DNA of 49,994 nt from Desulfonatronum sp. (GTDB lineage Bacteria > Desulfobacterota > Desulfovibrionia > Desulfovibrionales > Desulfonatronaceae), in NCBI GenBank assembly GCA_011049455.1, contig DSBL01000089.1, forward strand, positions 1 through 49,994, read 5' to 3'. The position numbers were made by a program, and so were the translations under genes. Positions 25,398-33,255 of the stretch are shown piece after piece; position 1 is the first letter of the stretch; every line of letters starts with the position of its first letter. Below the pieces are notes generated by a model, which searched no databases, was not told where the DNA came from, and saw only the letters and a program-made list of their open reading frames with translations.

Positions 25398-25799
25398 TCA
25401 GGGCCGCACGTGGCATTCCCCGCAGGCGATGGGCCCGGCCTTCTTTTCCAGATGACAGTCCTTGCACTGTTTGTGAAAGGCCTGCATCAGCGGGGTCTGG
25501 TCGGGATCGGCCTTGACCGGGTGACAGTCCACGCAGGGCATGCCGGCGCTGCTGTCCATGGGATCCGGGTTCTTCCCGTCAAAGTGGTGGCAGAGCCAGC
25601 AGTCGTCTTCGATCTCGGCTTTGATGTTATGTTCATCGTGCACAAAAACCGAGGCCGGACGCTGCTTGACGCCAAAGGCGTCGGTGATGATGTGCGTCAT
25701 GTCGTCTTGGGACAGGGCCGGGCCGACGAACAGGGTCGGCCAGACGAACAAGGCCGTCAGCAGGCCAAGTCCGGCCCACAGGGCGAGCTTTCCAGTCAT
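25398..25799 (-). CDS. tmcA: TmcA, tetrahaem (type II) cytochrome c3
   Basis: 133 residues. An N-terminal signal peptide of about 30 residues leads to the periplasm. Four haem-binding CxxCH motifs are present: CWLCH, CVDCH, CKDCH and CGECH. The spacing and size fit the acidic type II cytochrome c3 that takes electrons from type I cytochrome c3/hydrogenase and passes them to the Tmc membrane complex. AAGGAG precedes the ATG. It is the last gene of the operon here, 27 bp after tmcB. Confidence 0.93.
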   Translation of the reverse strand: MTGKLALWAGLGLLTALFVWPTLFVGPALSQDDMTHIITDAFGVKQRPASVFVHDEHNIKAEIEDDCWLCHHFDGKNPDPMDSSAGMPCVDCHPVKADPDQTPLMQAFHKQCKDCHLEKKAGPIACGECHVRP

Positions 25800-25826
25800 G
25801 GCGTTTCTCCTTTTCGCAACCGCGGC

Positions 25827-27152
25827 TTAAATGGCGTTGGATTTGTGCATGTGAGCATAAATGATATCAATCAAAAAAACCAGTTTAACATCCAGCTTGT
25901 AGTGGTTGATGATGTCTTCCAGACCTCCGTGACAGTTGTGGCAGGGAGCGATGAGCACCTTGGCGCCCGTGGCCGTGATCTGTTCGGCCTTGACCCTGTT
26001 GCCCAGCACCCTGGTCTTGGTGTGCGGCGGACCGCAGTTGATCACCCCGCCGCCGGCCGAGCAGCAATAGTTCTGCTCGCGGTTGGGTTCCATCTCGATG
26101 AAGTTGGAGCAAAAGGCTCTGACCACGTCCCGGGCCATCTCGTGCAAACCCATGCCGCGCACCACATTGCAGGGATCATGAAAGGTGCAGGGTTCTTCCA
26201 TCTGGGTGGCCACCTTCAGGCGGCCCTCCTTGAGCATTTCCCAGTAGAACTGCAGGGCGTGAATCACCGGGATGGGCATTTCCCTCCAGCCCAGCCAGCG
26301 GTTGCCGACGTCGTAGACCGAGCGGTAGGCGTGGCCGCATTCGCCCATGACCACGCGTTTGACCCTCAACCGCCGGGCCGTTTCAAAGTGGGCGCGCTTG
26401 ATGCGGCCCATGATCTCCAGGTCCCCGCTGTACATGCTCATGTCGCTGTTGTCCCAGCCCGGGGTGGCGGGCATGGTCCAGTCCACCCCGCATTCGTTCA
26501 TGAGCACCGCGGCCTGGCCAATGAGCTGGGTGCGGAATTTCGGCTCAGGACCGATGACCGAGTAGAAGAAGTCCGCTCCCTCTTTTTCCAAGGGAATGCG
26601 CAGGTTGGGGATTTCGTCGCGGTACTCGTCCTCCTGCCACTGCAGGGTGTCGATCCATTCGTCGTCCTTGACCCACATCTGGTTGAAGGTGGAGGCGTGG
26701 CTGTGGCTGGTATCCTGAAGGTACAGCGGGGTCACGCCCAAAAGGTGGCAGATCCGCCGGACCACGGTCATCAGATAGGCCGTGTCAATGCCAAAGGGAC
26801 AGTACTGCACGCAGCGTTTGCAGACGTTGCATTCGGTATAGGCAATGGTCGCGGCCCGGACGATGAACTCCTGCGAGACATTGCCCTTGGTGCGGATCAT
26901 TTCCCAGAGGGTCTGCTTGACCTTGCCTGCGGGCGAGTACTTCGGGTCCCGGTCATGGGAGAGAAAAAAGTGGCAGGCGTCCGAGCACAGTCCGCAACTG
27001 ACGCAGGTGCCCACGAAGGCCTTCAGCCGGGCGCTGTTTTCCTGCTGCAGGACCCGGTTGATGGTTGTTCGGATGCGCTCGGGGGTCAGCTTGGCTGCGG
27101 TCTCATCCAGCCCCGGGTCGTCGATTTTTTGAGCCAAAGCGGCTTCACTCAT
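25827..27152 (-). CDS. tmcB: TmcB, iron-sulfur subunit of the Tmc complex
   Basis: 441 residues. Two [4Fe-4S] motifs (CVSCGLCSDAC and CNVCKRCVQYC) are followed by a region with cysteine-rich CCG-type motifs (CTFHDPCN, NYCCSAGGG, APCHNCHGG) as in HdrD/HmcF-like subunits, which may hold a non-cubane cluster. It is a cytoplasmic-facing subunit that moves electrons from TmcC to the cytoplasm; the final acceptor is not established. It sits 24 bp after tmcC. Confidence 0.93.
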   Translation of the reverse strand: MSEAALAQKIDDPGLDETAAKLTPERIRTTINRVLQQENSARLKAFVGTCVSCGLCSDACHFFLSHDRDPKYSPAGKVKQTLWEMIRTKGNVSQEFIVRAATIAYTECNVCKRCVQYCPFGIDTAYLMTVVRRICHLLGVTPLYLQDTSHSHASTFNQMWVKDDEWIDTLQWQEDEYRDEIPNLRIPLEKEGADFFYSVIGPEPKFRTQLIGQAAVLMNECGVDWTMPATPGWDNSDMSMYSGDLEIMGRIKRAHFETARRLRVKRVVMGECGHAYRSVYDVGNRWLGWREMPIPVIHALQFYWEMLKEGRLKVATQMEEPCTFHDPCNVVRGMGLHEMARDVVRAFCSNFIEMEPNREQNYCCSAGGGVINCGPPHTKTRVLGNRVKAEQITATGAKVLIAPCHNCHGGLEDIINHYKLDVKLVFLIDIIYAHMHKSNAI

Positions 27153-27176
27153 GATTTTTCTCCTCTGTGTGGATTG

Positions 27177-27836
27177 CTACCAGTCTTTGACATGCCGTTC
27201 AGCGCCGAATTCCGAGCCCATGTAGCCGCGGATCATGGGGTAGAGCATGACGTGGCTGAGCCAGGTGAAGGGGATGGCCACGAGCATGGCCTCTCCGGCC
27301 AGAACGTGCAGGATGATCATGGTCTGGTAGTCAAAGATTTGGTAATAGGCCAAAAAACCGGTCAAAAAGGGCAGGGCCACCAGGCCCAAAATGACGAATT
27401 CCTTGGGGCCGGTGACGTATCTGGCTTCGGGCACCACCCGCCGGCGGACCACGAAGAACACGATGCTGGCCAGGACCACCCAGGTCATGACGTCGGCCAC
27501 GGCATCCGGCAGGGTCCACCAGGAGACGCCCCAGGCTTCCTCAAACATGATCACATGGGCCAGGAGAAAGATGGGCGCGATGATCAGGCAGATGTGAAAG
27601 GCAAAAGTGACCACGGTCATCACCGGGTTCAGGCGCATGTTCCTGGTGGAGAAGGGGATCAGCCAGACAATGATCGAGCGCAAGGCGTATTTCAGGTGGA
27701 GATAGCTGAAGACATAGGGATCCTTGTTTTTGGCCAGGCTGGTGAGGTAGACGAATTTGCCCGCCAAGCCGCCGATGAAGACCAGAAACGCGACCCAAAC
27801 CAAGGGACCGGTGACAAAAGTATAGATGCTGTGCAT
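27177..27836 (-). CDS. tmcC: TmcC, membrane cytochrome b-like subunit
   Basis: 219 residues with about five membrane helices and a NarI-like cytochrome b pattern. It has several histidines suited to haem b, for example in FAFHICLIIAPIFLLAHV and MIILHVLAGEAMLVAIPFTWLSHV. It carries electrons across the inner membrane between TmcA and TmcB. The start at 27836 is chosen because the longer frame overlaps tmcD and lacks protein character. It lies 13 bp after tmcD. Confidence 0.9.
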   Translation of the reverse strand: MHSIYTFVTGPLVWVAFLVFIGGLAGKFVYLTSLAKNKDPYVFSYLHLKYALRSIIVWLIPFSTRNMRLNPVMTVVTFAFHICLIIAPIFLLAHVIMFEEAWGVSWWTLPDAVADVMTWVVLASIVFFVVRRRVVPEARYVTGPKEFVILGLVALPFLTGFLAYYQIFDYQTMIILHVLAGEAMLVAIPFTWLSHVMLYPMIRGYMGSEFGAERHVKDW

Positions 27837-27849
27837 GGTCTGTCTCCCC

Positions 27850-29109
27850 CTAGAAATCGTGCACGCCGGCCACGATGCGTTTGAATTTTCCGTCCTGCAC
27901 GGCACGGATGAGCACGGAGCGGCTGTCCGGGCTGAACACGGGTTCCCAGCACTGCTCAAAGGTCTCTTTCAAGGGCTTGCCGTTCATGACCACGGTGTAC
28001 CGCTTGCCGGGCAGTTCAACCTTGGCGGCCAGGTGTTTGGAATCCGGGCTGAAGACCGGCGACCAGATCATTTCGTACCAAGAGTTCCACAGGGACTGGT
28101 CCACCATGAAGGTCCAGCGGCCCCCTTCCTTGGCTGCGGCCGCGACCCGCGCGCCGTCCGGGCTGACGGTCAAATCCTCGACCATGTCTCCCACCGTGAG
28201 GGGCCAGGGCGAGCCGTTTTCCACAAGAGTCCACCGGCCGTATTTCGGAGCGCCGATGGCGTACAGCTTCTTGCCGTCCGGGGAAAAGGCCTGATGCCAG
28301 AGCTGGTAAAAGGTCGGATCCCAGAGGATCCGGCCGTCCTCGGCCATGCCCCATTTGCCGGCCTGACGCACGGGCGCCACCACGGCCCCGGTGGAGGGGT
28401 TGAAGCGGGGTTCCCATGTCGCGGAGAAGTTTTGCGACCAGGGCTTGCCGTCCACGACAATGGTGTAGTCGTAAAGAGTGGAGCGGGTCTGCACTGCCAG
28501 GCGTTTGTCGCTGGGATCAAAGACCGGGGTCCAGGCGTTGACGAAGCGGTTGTCCCAGGCTTCACCGTTCACGGCCACGGAATAGCAGCCCTTCTGGTAG
28601 GTGAAGATCTCCGCCTGGCCCATGCTGACCATCACCACCACGGCAGCGCTGCGCTTGCCGTCGCTGCTCAGATTGAACTCGTTGGCGGTGTCGTACAGCT
28701 GCTCCCATATCTCGCCGTTGACCACCATGCCGTATACGCCGTCCGCTTGGGCGCAGGCGGCGATGGTGTCCCCGGTTTCACTGAACAGCGTGTTCCAGAG
28801 GCAGGTGTATGTTTCCGGCCAGACTTCGCCGTCCACGGCCAAAGTCCATTCCCCGTCCACGTTAACCAGGGCGGTCAGACGTCCGTCCGGGCTGAATTTG
28901 GGATACCAGGCCCGGTCAAAGGTTTGCTCCCAGAGTTTTCCGTTGACGCAAACACCATAGCCTTCCTCAAGTTTCGCGACTACCGCGACCTGCTCCCCGT
29001 CCGGGCTGGCATGCAGCTCCTCCAACCAGGAAACCTCGGCGTCGCAATCCTTGACCTCGTGGATGACGCGCTCCCCGGGTTCCCAATTCCAATGACCGTT
29101 TTCAGGCAT
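27850..29109 (-). CDS. tmcD: TmcD, WD40-like repeat subunit of the Tmc complex
   Basis: 419 residues. A series of repeats each contain a VNGKLWEQTFD/VDGKPWSQNFS-type motif plus FSPDGR/FSPDSK, giving a beta-propeller-like pattern. There are no haem or FeS motifs and no signal peptide, so it is probably cytoplasmic, as described for TmcD. AAGGAGG lies before the ATG at 29109. First gene of the operon, with the order D-C-B-A in the direction of transcription. Confidence 0.9.
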   Translation of the reverse strand: MPENGHWNWEPGERVIHEVKDCDAEVSWLEELHASPDGEQVAVVAKLEEGYGVCVNGKLWEQTFDRAWYPKFSPDGRLTALVNVDGEWTLAVDGEVWPETYTCLWNTLFSETGDTIAACAQADGVYGMVVNGEIWEQLYDTANEFNLSSDGKRSAAVVVMVSMGQAEIFTYQKGCYSVAVNGEAWDNRFVNAWTPVFDPSDKRLAVQTRSTLYDYTIVVDGKPWSQNFSATWEPRFNPSTGAVVAPVRQAGKWGMAEDGRILWDPTFYQLWHQAFSPDGKKLYAIGAPKYGRWTLVENGSPWPLTVGDMVEDLTVSPDGARVAAAAKEGGRWTFMVDQSLWNSWYEMIWSPVFSPDSKHLAAKVELPGKRYTVVMNGKPLKETFEQCWEPVFSPDSRSVLIRAVQDGKFKRIVAGVHDF

Positions 29110-29334
29110 GAATGTCCTCCTTAAGTGTGTGGTCAACGTTGGTTTCCGCAGTATCGACGTTCAGGAAGAGGCTTGGAACCTTCTTCAAGAATTGCGTTGA
29201 TCGCTAAGCAAGATGCATCAGGAAAGGAAGATGGAATCAAAGCACAAAAACTTGTTGTCGGGCGATGACACCGTTCCTTAAACAAATTCATGCTGTTTTC
29301 GTGAAAATTTCCTTTTGCTACTTTACCGAAATTG

Positions 29335-29407: not shown

Positions 29408-30760
29408 TCAGGAGGGAGCATTGCTTCGGCTGCGACCGTCGATGTGGGGAGGAGTGATCCCCAGGCCTTGGATTTTGCGGTACAGGGTGCTGGGATTGAT
29501 GCCCAGGTCCCGAGCCGCCAGGGATCTGTTTCCGTTGCGGCGCTCCAGTGTCTGGGCAATTAAAATTCTTTCCATGGCTTGCAGGCTTGCGGGCCAGATT
29601 ATCTTTTCCTGTTTTTGTTCAGGCGGACATAATTCCAAAGGCAGATGTTCGCGTTCGATGAGTCTCCCGCGGCAGAGCACGCAGGCCTGTTCCAGAATAT
29701 TCTCCAATTCCCGGACATTGCCGGGATAATCGTGATTCATCAGACAGACCATGGCTTCGTCCGAAACTTCGGGGACATCGCGGCCTCGCAAGCGGCTGAA
29801 GCGATGCAAGGCGTGTTCCACCAGCAGGGGAATGTCTTCGCGGCGATGGCGCAATTCAGGCAATTGGAGATGGACCACCCGGATTCGGTAGTAGAGATCC
29901 TGGCGAAATTGTCCAGAATCCACAAGTTCGCGCAGGGTCTTGTTCGTGGCTGCGATCACGCGCACATCCACGCGTATCGGCGTGATCCCGCCCAGCGGCT
30001 CCACGACCCGTTCCTGGAGAACCCGCAGCAAACGGCTTTGCATGGCCGGGGAAATGTCGCCGATTTCATCCAGAAAAAGCGTTCCCTTGTGGGCCAGGAG
30101 AAAACGGCCGGGTTTGTCTTTTCGGGCGTCGGTAAAAGCACCGGACTTGTAACCGAACAATTCGCTTACCAGCAGGGTGTCCGGCAGAGCCGCGCAGTTG
30201 ACGGGCACAAAACGCTCCCTGCGGCGGGGGGAAAGGTTGTGCAGGGCCCGGGCGAACAATTCCTTGCCCGTGCCGCTGGGGCCCTCAATAAGCACGGTGC
30301 TGTCGCTGTCGGCTATCAGCGGGAGGATTGCATAGAGTCGTTTCATGGCGGAACTGCGGCCGACAATGTCCTCGAAACCATAGCTGGCGCGCAGTTCCTT
30401 GCTCAGTTGATCCACCTCGCTGAGATCCTGAAATGTCTCCACCCCGCCGACCACTTTTCCGGCATCGTCGCGCAACAGGGCCGTGGACAGGCGAATGGGA
30501 ACAAATCGTCCCGCGCAGTTCAGGATGGATGCCGTGGCGTTGATCACCGGCTTGCCCGCGGCGAACGTGCGCCGCAAAGCGCAATTTTTTTCGCAGATGG
30601 TGGCTCGAAAGACCTCGCAACAGCTTCGCCCCACGGCATGCTTGCGTGATACGCCGGTGATCCGCTCCGCGGCATGGTTAAAGGAAGTAATCCGCCAATC
30701 GGGCGTGACCGTGAAGACGCCTTCATTGATCGATTCCAGAATCACGTCCCGTTTATTCAT
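29408..30760 (-). CDS. PAS-containing sigma-54-dependent transcriptional activator
   Basis: 450 residues. The N-terminal PAS domain has a cysteine cluster (CCEVFRATICEKNC, Cys47/48/56/60) that could sense redox or bind a cofactor. The AAA+ domain has Walker A GPSGTGKE at 160-167 and Walker B GTLFLDEI. The sigma-54 contact loop reads GAFTDA at 207-212 instead of GAFTGA, a variant found in other activators. A Fis-type helix-turn-helix (NRSLAARDLGINPSTLYRKI) ends it. There is no receiver domain, so control is by ligand or redox state. It is divergent from the NifX-like gene, whose upstream region carries a sigma-54 element and several palindromes, its most likely target. Confidence 0.92.
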   Translation of the reverse strand: MNKRDVILESINEGVFTVTPDWRITSFNHAAERITGVSRKHAVGRSCCEVFRATICEKNCALRRTFAAGKPVINATASILNCAGRFVPIRLSTALLRDDAGKVVGGVETFQDLSEVDQLSKELRASYGFEDIVGRSSAMKRLYAILPLIADSDSTVLIEGPSGTGKELFARALHNLSPRRRERFVPVNCAALPDTLLVSELFGYKSGAFTDARKDKPGRFLLAHKGTLFLDEIGDISPAMQSRLLRVLQERVVEPLGGITPIRVDVRVIAATNKTLRELVDSGQFRQDLYYRIRVVHLQLPELRHRREDIPLLVEHALHRFSRLRGRDVPEVSDEAMVCLMNHDYPGNVRELENILEQACVLCRGRLIEREHLPLELCPPEQKQEKIIWPASLQAMERILIAQTLERRNGNRSLAARDLGINPSTLYRKIQGLGITPPHIDGRSRSNAPS

Positions 30761-30808
30761 GAAAAAAATCCCTGAATTGTATTGAAAAAAGGCAATCAAG
30801 CATAAGCC

Positions 30809-30821
30809 ATGCAATTTGCAT
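30809..30821. promoter_or_regulatory. Palindrome ATGCAA-T-TTGCAT in the divergent control region
   Basis: A perfect 13-bp inverted repeat. Related TTGCAT/TTGCAC words recur at 30841-30853, about 30 bp away. This spacing is suitable for binding by the activator encoded beside it; which protein binds is unknown. Confidence 0.35.
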
Positions 30822-30887
30822 TAGTTGTTTTCTTTATTTATTGCATATTGCACAAATGATTGTCCAGGTTGTCTGTCTGGAATTTAT

Positions 30888-30916
30888 TTGAAGATATTGC
30901 TTTATCATGGTATGAT
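30888..30916 (+). promoter_or_regulatory. Sigma-70 promoter candidate for the NifX-like gene with operator on the -10
   Basis: TTGAAG at 30888-30893, a 17-bp spacer and TATGAT at 30911-30916. A perfect inverted repeat TTATCAT-GGT-ATGATAA (30902-30918) covers the -10 box, a classic repressor position. Confidence 0.4.
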
Positions 30917-30930
30917 AAGAATGTATCCAA

Positions 30931-30946
30931 TGGCCCGGCATTTGCT
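30931..30946 (+). promoter_or_regulatory. Sigma-54 (-24/-12) element overlapping the NifX-like start
   Basis: TGGCCCG-GCAT-TTGCT matches the consensus TGGCACG-N4-TTGCW at all but one position. The predicted +1 at 30957 is one base before the ATG at 30958, so a transcript from it would be almost leaderless. Confidence 0.5.
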
Positions 30947-30951
30947 GCCCC

Positions 30952-31329
30952 ATGGGCATGATCATCGCCCTCGCCCACTGGCAGGGACGCATTTCACCCG
31001 TATTTGACGTCTCGCAACAGCTTCTCCTTGTATCCCGAGAAGCTTGTTGGCCGCATCAGCGCCGGATGGTCCAGCTTCTTTACGAACAACCCCAGGCCCG
31101 GGCCAGAGAGGTGGCCGGACTCGGCGTTCATGTGCTGCTTTGCGGGGCTGTCTCCAAAATGCTGGCAACGGCCCTGACCAACGAGGGCGTGCGTGTGGTC
31201 GGCTTTCTTTGCGGAGAAGTGGAGGATGTCCTGGATGCATTTCTAAGCCGCCGCCTGCATCAAAGCCGCTACCGCATGCCCGGTTTTACAAAGAAGACGT
31301 TGACATTCGAAAAGAACGTGGGGGGGTGA
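30952..31329 (+). CDS. NifX/NifB-type iron-molybdenum cofactor family protein
   Basis: 125 residues. The N terminus MIIALAHWQGRISPVFDVSQQLLLV and the LLCGAVSK and VVGFLCGEVEDVLDAFL blocks belong to the dinitrogenase FeMo-cofactor-binding (NifX, NafY, MTH1175, orange protein) fold. Members bind metal-sulfur clusters; in Desulfovibrio the orange protein of this family carries a Mo-Cu cluster and is under sigma-54 control. No nitrogenase genes are visible here. ATG codons at 30952 and 30958 are both possible; the second gives the family-typical start. Confidence 0.8.
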   Translation: MGMIIALAHWQGRISPVFDVSQQLLLVSREACWPHQRRMVQLLYEQPQARAREVAGLGVHVLLCGAVSKMLATALTNEGVRVVGFLCGEVEDVLDAFLSRRLHQSRYRMPGFTKKTLTFEKNVGG

Positions 31330-31441: not shown

Positions 31442-31687
31442 ATGCCCATTCACGAATACACCTGTTCCGCCTGCGGTGAAATTTTCGAAGCCATTCAGAT
31501 CGGTCGGCAAGCTCCGCCCTCATGTCCATTCTGCGGTGCGGGCAATGCCAGCAAGATGCTTTCCGCTCCAGCATCAAGCGTCGGTTCCACGCGGCATGCC
31601 ATGCCTGGTCCGCGTGATCACGGGTGTTGCGGAGAACGGCCGGGACAGAAAGGCTGCGTGCCCGGTTCCTGCTGCGGACGGGCTTGA
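31442..31687 (+). CDS. FmdB-like zinc ribbon protein
   Basis: 81 residues. The N-terminal MPIHEYTCSACGEIFEA with a second CPFCG pair is the FmdB putative regulatory zinc ribbon. The C-terminal tail is Cys/Gly-rich (CCGERPGQKGC ... GSCCGRA), giving ten cysteines in 81 residues, which suggests additional metal binding. Family function is unproven. It stands 112 bp after the NifX-like gene and 39 bp before the metallo-beta-lactamase gene, all in the same direction. Confidence 0.8.
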   Translation: MPIHEYTCSACGEIFEAIQIGRQAPPSCPFCGAGNASKMLSAPASSVGSTRHAMPGPRDHGCCGERPGQKGCVPGSCCGRA

Positions 31688-31726
31688 TTCCGGGTTAGTC
31701 CAAACAGCAATGAGTGCGTGACGAAG

Positions 31727-32584
31727 ATGCGTTTGACCGTTCTTGCCGACAACAACACCCTGACCGACCATTATTTTCTGGGCGAACCGGGATTGAGCAT
31801 TCTCGTGGAGCATGAAGGCCAGCAGACCCTTTTGGACGCGGGCTATTCGGATGTCTTTTTGCAAAATGCGGTCAAGATGGGGCTGGACCTGTTGCAATTG
31901 GACAGGGTGGTCCTTTCCCATGGCCATTTGGACCACACCTGGGGCCTGACGGCGTTGATCCGCCTGCGCACCGAGGCAGCCATTGAACGGCGTAACGTCG
32001 TGGAGACCGAGCTGCTTGCGCATCCTTTGGCGTTGCAGAGCAAAAGCAGGGATTATCTGCCGGAAATCGGATCCCTGCTCAGCGCGGATCAGCTTGGACG
32101 GCATTTCCGGTTGAACCTGCGCGAACAGCCCATGCAACTGGGCGAGGGGCTGTATTATCTGGGCGAGATTCCGCGTCGCTTTGCCTTTGAGCGCATGGAT
32201 CAACGAGGACGCCGGCGCTGGGGGCCTGACGGTCCGCAACCGGACGCCCTGGTGGACGACACGGCCCTGGCCTTTCGTTGCGCCAGGGGACTGGTGCTGA
32301 TCACGGGTTGCTCACACAGCGGCATCTGCAACATCGCGGCTCAAGCCATGGATGTTACCGGAGTGTCTCGCATCGTGGACATTATCGGCGGACTGCACCT
32401 GCTCAAGGCGTCCAAGGAGCGCTTGGAAAAAACAGTGGACTATTTGACGGGAGTGGGACTGGAAGCCCTGCATGCCTGTCACTGTACGGATTTGGAGGCT
32501 AAAATCGCCTTGGCCGGGGGTTTGCCTGTGCGGGAAACCGGCAGCGGCCTGGTTTTGGAATATCCGGACGCGGTCATGGCATGA
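31727..32584 (+). CDS. Metallo-beta-lactamase fold hydrolase
   Basis: 285 residues. The metal motif HGHLDH is at residues 65-70, with further ligands in GCSHSGICN and HACHCTD. The pattern resembles the subgroup annotated as dihydropterin-ribofuranosylaminobenzene phosphate synthase-like, which occurs widely outside methanogens with unknown substrate. It is cytoplasmic, with no signal peptide. A GTG at 31718 is an alternative start. It is in line with the NifX-like and FmdB-like genes, so a shared metallocofactor role is possible but inferred only from position. Confidence 0.85.
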   Translation: MRLTVLADNNTLTDHYFLGEPGLSILVEHEGQQTLLDAGYSDVFLQNAVKMGLDLLQLDRVVLSHGHLDHTWGLTALIRLRTEAAIERRNVVETELLAHPLALQSKSRDYLPEIGSLLSADQLGRHFRLNLREQPMQLGEGLYYLGEIPRRFAFERMDQRGRRRWGPDGPQPDALVDDTALAFRCARGLVLITGCSHSGICNIAAQAMDVTGVSRIVDIIGGLHLLKASKERLEKTVDYLTGVGLEALHACHCTDLEAKIALAGGLPVRETGSGLVLEYPDAVMA

Positions 32585-32748
32585 GCCAAGGCAATGTTGG
32601 ATCGGCCGGGGAACATGATTGGTTTTTGGCCAGCTTCGAGCCTGAAGAGAGCAGGGCGATTCAGGCCCGACCTTGATTTGTGTCCGCTATCATCCATTAT
32701 TCAATTATTGTTTGTTGATCCATCACTTTCAACCAAAAGGAACGTTCA

Positions 32749-33255
32749 ATGCAGATGACCGATCTCGCGACCGTGGAAGTCTGGAAGGAGCTGGAACGCT
32801 TCATTTATGAGAACTATACTTTGAATGGGCGGGCCTATGACCACGAGGGCAAGGTTTTCACCGGGCAGGTCCTGTGGTGCAACCGTTTCTGTCCAGCGGT
32901 GCGCTCGAATCCAGCGGCCCTTTCCGCTGTTTGCGCCGCGGCCCATCAGAACATGGCCGGCCAAGCCCAGGCCGAGGGCGGATCAGTGATCGGGGAATGC
33001 GATCTTGGTCTTTATAAAATCGTGGTTCCCGTCATTGTCTCCGGGAAATTCCTCGGTGCCGTGGGCGGTTGCGGCCGTTTGCCGGAAAACGGTTCGGTGG
33101 ATGCTTTTGCGGCTGAAAAAATCGCCGGCCTGTCAGGGCAACAATTGAATGAATTGAATACAAGCCTGACGCGCATGACCCGGTCGGAAGCCCAGGAGCT
33201 GGCTGATGCCCTGGCTGCCAAGATCGCGGATTTGACCAAGAGCGCAACCCTCTGA
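32749..33255 (+). CDS. PocR-domain sensory protein
   Basis: 168 residues consisting of a single PocR ligand-binding domain. It has the Cys pattern WCNRFCP, AVCAAAHQNM, GECDLGLYKIVVPV and GGCGRLPENG. PocR domains are related to PAS folds and sense small molecules in signalling proteins. Here no output domain (HTH, GGDEF or kinase) is attached, so it may act by binding a partner. It is preceded by a 164-bp gap with its own AAAGGAA ribosome site. Substrate and partner are unknown. Confidence 0.85.
   Translation: MQMTDLATVEVWKELERFIYENYTLNGRAYDHEGKVFTGQVLWCNRFCPAVRSNPAALSAVCAAAHQNMAGQAQAEGGSVIGECDLGLYKIVVPVIVSGKFLGAVGGCGRLPENGSVDAFAAEKIAGLSGQQLNELNTSLTRMTRSEAQELADALAAKIADLTKSATL

Follow-up and report, generated by a model that had tools for sequence, protein, structure and literature searches.

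The window, by which we mean the whole 49,994-nt stretch analysed (Desulfonatronum sp., contig DSBL01000089.1), contains a gene for a sigma-54 activator (EBP; 29408-30760, minus strand) and, 197 bp away and divergent from it, a short gene for a protein with a NifX-like fold (start at 30958, plus strand). The genes and the elements between them are as follows.

29408 to 30760, minus strand: sigma-54 activator (EBP) gene of PAS-AAA+-Fis type, assigned from its translation and divergent from the NifX-like gene
30810 to 30820: distal palindrome TGCAATTTGCA, probable EBP site, centred at -143 from the ATG at 30958
30842 to 30852: proximal palindrome TGCATATTGCA, probable EBP site, centred at -111 and 32 bp from the distal one
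30888 to 30916, plus strand: sigma-70-like pair TTGAAG-17-TATGAT, judged a chance match
30902 to 30918: inverted repeat TTATCAT-GGT-ATGATAA, judged a chance match
30931 to 30946, plus strand: sigma-54 -24/-12 element TGGCCCGGCATTTGCT, one mismatch from the consensus and recurring at this distance from the start codon in relatives
30957 (12-nt rule) or 30958 (A of the ATG), plus strand: predicted transcription start, from the spacing and the pyrimidine before the start codon
30958 to 31329, plus strand: NifX/NafY-fold gene, 123 aa, predicted leaderless, with a weak Pfam match and a fold match
31442 to 31687, plus strand: FmdB-type zinc ribbon gene, downstream of the NifX-like gene
31718 to 32584, plus strand: MBL-fold hydrolase gene, downstream of the NifX-like gene
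32749 to 33255, plus strand: PocR-domain protein gene, downstream of the NifX-like gene

The EBP translation matches the Pfam families Sigma54_activat (2.1e-66), HTH_8 (4.3e-12) and PAS_9 (9.3e-13), and reads GAFTDA in place of the GAFTGA motif, a working variant that is also that of DVU2106 in the available text of PMC4641369. The product of 30958-31329 scores 25.0 bits against PF02579, below the gathering cut-off of 26.3, and its structure model (pLDDT 88.9) has as best Foldseek matches 2yx6 (E 6.4e-08) and 1o13 (E 1.4e-05), with NifX 9ian_F (E 4.5e-04), ORP 2wfb and NafY 1p90 lower down; a profile search likewise matched 1t3v, 2yx6 and 1o13. Its NifX identity is weak by Pfam and, on the modelled structure, firm by fold. 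The zinc ribbon, MBL hydrolase and PocR genes (31442-33255) possibly belong to the same operon. On the other side, the minus strand at 25398-29136 carries ORFs for a multihaem cytochrome, a CCG-type iron-sulfur subunit and a membrane subunit, genes that in our view resemble the Tmc redox complex of sulfate reducers. The cassette (29408-31329) is patchy, the NifX-like gene being present in 0/7 genus-mates, and the closest EBPs (at most 69% identity) come from other families within the phylum, which together hint at horizontal transfer. Between the palindromes and the sigma-54 element, at 30863-30881 (plus strand), there is a terminator-like hairpin followed by a T-rich stretch (one found, 0.1 expected from shuffles), which could shield the NifX-like gene against read-through.

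All the elements named in a first-pass annotation of this DNA were found where it had placed them, and its near-perfect -24/-12 element was borne out: TGGCCCGGCATTTGCT has GG at 30932-30933 and GC at 30944-30945, boxes at the -24/-12 spacing of a sigma-54 promoter, with one mismatch to TGGCACRNNNNTTGCW, and it outscores every other site in the 130 nt upstream of the ATG at 30958, a score equalled by none of 300 dinucleotide shuffles of this stretch. Over the whole 50 kb, matches to the sigma-54 consensus with up to two mismatches show no excess over chance (14 found, 18.5 expected), so that the weight rests on the position and context of this one; strict elements in a scan of its own genome numbered 4, with 3 in the reversed control, an uninformative difference. 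The element ends 11 nt before the ATG. Counting 12 nt on from the C of the -12 box (30945) puts the canonical +1 at 30957, one base before the ATG as first proposed, and the A of the ATG is 13 nt from the same C; transcription is predicted, from this spacing and the preceding pyrimidine, to start at 30957 or 30958. The family alignment, in which 30958 is the conserved start and an SPVFD motif begins 12 codons on, rules out another start codon for the NifX-like gene, and the predicted +1 is preceded by an in-frame ATG at 30952. The ATG at 30958 has no Shine-Dalgarno (SD) sequence (duplex energy -2.4), as is characteristic of a leaderless mRNA.

We examined this arrangement in 170 EBP loci, made up of the window, the best 80 of 576 found by scanning genome contigs with the EBP, 29 found by searching 395 genomes of the phylum and 60 that are part of the further places listed by that search. 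A NifX-profile match was present in 119 of them and a start codon in 107 of these, leaving 103 counted loci in which the NifX-like gene reached E <= 1e-15 and its start codon was definable. Scored with sigma-54 weights of our own, 90 of the 103 have a site at threshold within 130 nt before the start (shuffled sets: mean 8.7, maximum 17) and 13 have none at threshold. The sites cluster sharply at -27, -28, -29 and -30 (7, 12, 9 and 2 loci; 30/103 together), a region in which 100 shuffled sets averaged 0.34 loci and never exceeded 2; a shoulder of 9 loci follows at -31 to -34, and a broad class of 51 spans -37 to -120. We refer to the 39 loci with sites at -27 to -34 as short-leader and to the other 51 as long-leader. 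When sites were instead called by counting mismatches (at most three, with GG and GC intact), 86/103 loci had one, with 25 at -27 to -30, 9 at -31 to -34 and 52 further upstream. By record title, members of the cluster include Deltaproteobacteria, Desulfobacteraceae, Planctomycetota, Phycisphaerales, Verrucomicrobia, Polyangiaceae and Zixiibacteriota, although nearly all are metagenome bins whose taxon names may be wrong. Two loci (L009 and L010) have, within about 50 nt after the predicted leaderless NifX-like gene, a 674-aa ORF that presumably resembles carbon monoxide dehydrogenase.

Short-leader and long-leader loci differ in SD pairing, with median energies of -1.3 and -8.6 kcal/mol respectively; energies of -5 or below occur in 1/39 short-leader (L086) versus 46/51 long-leader loci, and the contrast persists (p 1.4e-11) when EBPs are thinned to less than 80% identity (74 loci: 21 clustered, 8 shoulder and 35 long). 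A pyrimidine precedes the start codon in 26/30 clustered versus 23/51 long-leader loci (p 3e-4; 18/21 versus 13/35 in the thinned set), and by site position in 7/7 at -27, 12/12 at -28, 5/9 at -29 and 2/2 at -30. Pyrimidine-purine steps in the long-leader class are most frequent 14 nt past the C of the -12 box, a distance which for a site at -28 falls on the A of the ATG, and this fits a putative transcription start on that A. Since the pyrimidine is also present in 9/9 shoulder loci, where 17-20 nt separate the C from the start codon, and in only 5/9 at -29, it may not mark +1 and we give it little weight. As for upstream starts, some in-frame start codon occurs before a stop in 20/30 clustered genes and none in the other 10, which is a further sign of leaderlessness.

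In a FastTree of the 103 EBPs, that of the window falls in a clade of 26 (support 100), where 24 members have an at-threshold site between -27 and -31 and two (L002 and L005) a weaker one at -29. A second short-leader clade comprises 10 rows, 9 of them titled Zixiibacteriota, with sites at -28 to -34, and these two clades account for most of the 39 short-leader loci. Short leaders require eight changes on the best tree and at least five on well-supported branches; the latter provide four independent contrasts, with SD as expected in 3.6 on average, for which a sign test gives p 0.125 and, at n=4, cannot reach significance. When the tree was widened to take in 165 EBPs of the 170, the 26 fell in a minimal group of 34 rows with low support (13), and its other eight have no neighbouring NifX-like gene counted. 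One of this wider group that is without a NifX-like gene (L094) has instead a ferredoxin-like ORF, assumed to resemble AprB, with a strong SD and, 75 nt upstream, a strong sigma-54 site; in another (L016) a divergent ORF of 147 aa, unlike NifX and possibly a further leaderless target, has a sigma-54 site 12 nt upstream of its ATG.

A later set of 21 further EBP loci, drawn from the classes of two genomes with leaderless loci, was scored against the range -27 to -31 set beforehand: all 21 have a NifX-like gene with its best site in that range and at least one palindrome, and 19 have a pyrimidine before the ATG. As these are close relatives, they check the spacing rule and do not show independent evolution. 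Energies of -5.4 to -6.8 make three of them (L201, L209 and L210), with L086, exceptions to weak SD pairing. Of the two options offered by the first-pass annotation for the sigma-54 element, a leaderless mRNA or a decoy, the leaderless one is supported beyond the strength first proposed, with near-constant spacing in the EBP clade, short leaders mostly lacking an SD and 21/21 later loci pointing the same way in the DNA.

The palindromes of the window are TTGCA-N3-TGCAA-like twins with a TGCA-N3-TGCA core, and palindromes of the form GCA-N3-TGC occur in 19/26 clade members (mean 2.27 in shuffles). Successive pairs in this clade are 32-33 bp apart in 15/16 cases, with centres at -108 to -159, and within 200 nt four members (L006, L025, L088 and L090) show none. 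The second clade most often has the palindrome TGCA-N4-TGCA (8/10). With the EBP gene adjoining the promoter and the conserved palindromes upstream of the sigma-54 element, the EBP probably binds the twin palindromes; an EBP gene next to its sigma-54 targets is the usual arrangement in the available text of PMC4641369.

Starting from what can be read in the DNA itself, namely the element, its spacing, the missing SD, the palindromes and their recurrence in relatives, we propose, at a probability of about 0.75, that the NifX-fold gene is expressed from an EBP-activated sigma-54 promoter at 30931-30946 as an mRNA that is leaderless or nearly so. The element would be the working promoter of the gene, and the divergently encoded EBP, bound to the two palindromes 32 bp apart and 111 and 143 bp before the ATG, would activate the sigma-54 polymerase to start at the A of the ATG at 30958 or no more than about two bases away. 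The resulting mRNA would have no leader, or almost none, and no SD, and would presumably be translated by direct recognition of its 5'-terminal AUG, the way in which other leaderless mRNAs are initiated. The inducing signal may act through the PAS domain, and a redox or metal signal is a guess.

The short spacing might instead have arisen by accident and been inherited as the cassette spread vertically and by horizontal transfer, the mRNA being leaderless but unselected and translation coping with it. We regard this as the less probable account, though one with a real claim: the 39 short-leader loci are mainly in two EBP clades (26 and 10 rows), the cassette is patchy, its NifX-like gene occurring in 0/7 genus-mates, and leaderless spacing of strict sites is not enriched among 198 genomes of the phylum. 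It fits poorly with a stretch between the -12 box and the ATG that is diverse in sequence yet held at 11-14 nt, and with the eight changes in short leaders on the best tree (at least five on well-supported branches). Less probable again is a real sigma-54 promoter whose leaderless RNA is a minor product, the protein coming mainly from a longer transcript started upstream. The window does have a sigma-70-like pair whose -10 is extended and, in frame, an ATG at 30952, and some in-frame upstream start before a stop occurs in 20/30 clustered genes of the family; however, the other 10/30 have none, the sigma-70-like pair is not conserved, and a transcript from it would also be without an SD before 30952 or 30958 (energies -2.5 and -2.4).

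That pair bears on the decoy option too, in which sigma-54 polymerase parks at 30931-30946 without starting and blocks sigma-70 transcription from 30888-30916. Given the footprint of a polymerase, the two elements are near enough for the complexes to collide. The pair is nonetheless at chance level (1 found, 1.1 expected), and one occurs upstream of the sigma-54 site in 3/26 clade members, compared to a mean of 2.2 in shuffles; its TG before the -10, seen in 4% of shuffles on this strand, leaves a weak trace of a second promoter. At least one perfect repeat with 7-bp arms and a loop of 0-10 arises in 30% of shuffles, and the window is alone among the 26 clade members in having the TTATCAT repeat. 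With pair and repeat indistinguishable from chance, the decoy idea is left unsupported; what is conserved instead is the sigma-54 site, the paired palindromes and the adjacent EBP gene, and a decoy would not need a fixed distance to the ATG. We consider it very improbable, and of the two promoter types that the first-pass annotation saw stacked on one start codon we retain the sigma-54 one and drop the sigma-70 one.

The sigma-54 half of the window is thus placed, by likeness in the DNA, in a conserved family of predicted leaderless sigma-54 genes. Beyond this, we lean slightly towards a broader reading, in which EBP-NifX cassettes over several phyla have a first cistron that is obligately leaderless under sigma-54, the -12 box, +1 and AUG forming one selected composite signal and a switch that requires both an activated EBP and ribosomes starting on a 5'-terminal AUG, gained and lost several times with matching loss and gain of the SD. 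Leaderless genes have so far been tied mostly to sigma-70-type promoters, and a conserved sigma-54 leaderless family, if true, would join strict activator control to a non-canonical translation start. Its close relatives with and without leaders would make the question of why leaderless mRNAs persist directly testable, and sigma-54 sites lying almost on a start codon should not be discarded in regulon predictions.

We also scanned 198 genomes of the phylum for the strict pattern TGGCACGNNNNTTGCW followed by an ATG after 11-14 nt, a pattern that would miss the window's own site. Leaderless spacing gave 28 matches (in 12 of them the ATG starts an ORF of 60 aa or more), control spacings of 31-34 nt and 101-104 nt gave 32 and 34, and with no enrichment over these controls we rejected leaderless sigma-54 transcription as a phylum-wide habit. 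The predicted layout is a feature of this EBP-NifX family; isolated examples occur outside it, among them L194, also a NifX-like gene.

Among known systems, the orp operons, which carry ORP with ATPase genes and are sigma-54 controlled, come close. ORP has a NifX-like fold and, as 2wfb, is among the Foldseek matches of the window protein. In Desulfovibrio vulgaris the gene for the EBP DVU2106 lies amid divergent sigma-54 promoters with palindromic EBP sites between them, as predicted in the window (available text of PMC3897727 and PMC4641369), and both EBPs have the GAFTDA motif. In contrast, the orp genes are leadered, the legend of Figure S1 (PMC3897727) marking Shine-Dalgarno sequences, whereas the window gene has none, and its neighbours are not the orp ATPase genes. 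We therefore rejected membership in the orp system, the next three genes being for the zinc ribbon, MBL hydrolase and PocR-domain proteins and the SD being absent, unlike in orp.

Leaderless transcripts are described in several bacteria (literature including PMC7438776, PMC6615313, PMC2725144 and PMC12316311, as available in part), and in the open-access main texts searched we found no description of conserved leaderless sigma-54 genes. Sinorhizobium meliloti, Bradyrhizobium japonicum and Leptospira interrogans have mapped leaderless mRNAs as well as sigma-54 promoters, but the main-text accounts do not tie the leaderless starts to sigma-54 elements (PMC3616915, PMC4842269, PMC5243855), and an extended -10 motif is reported among these accounts for the leaderless genes of B. 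japonicum. A parallel in geometry is in Deinococcus-Thermus, where the promoter element of leaderless genes is likewise at a fixed short distance before the start (available text of PMC12340547). There, however, it is a sigma-70-type -10 box adjoining the ORF and occurs phylum-wide, whereas in the family of the window it would be a sigma-54 element that needs an EBP, within one EBP-NifX family.
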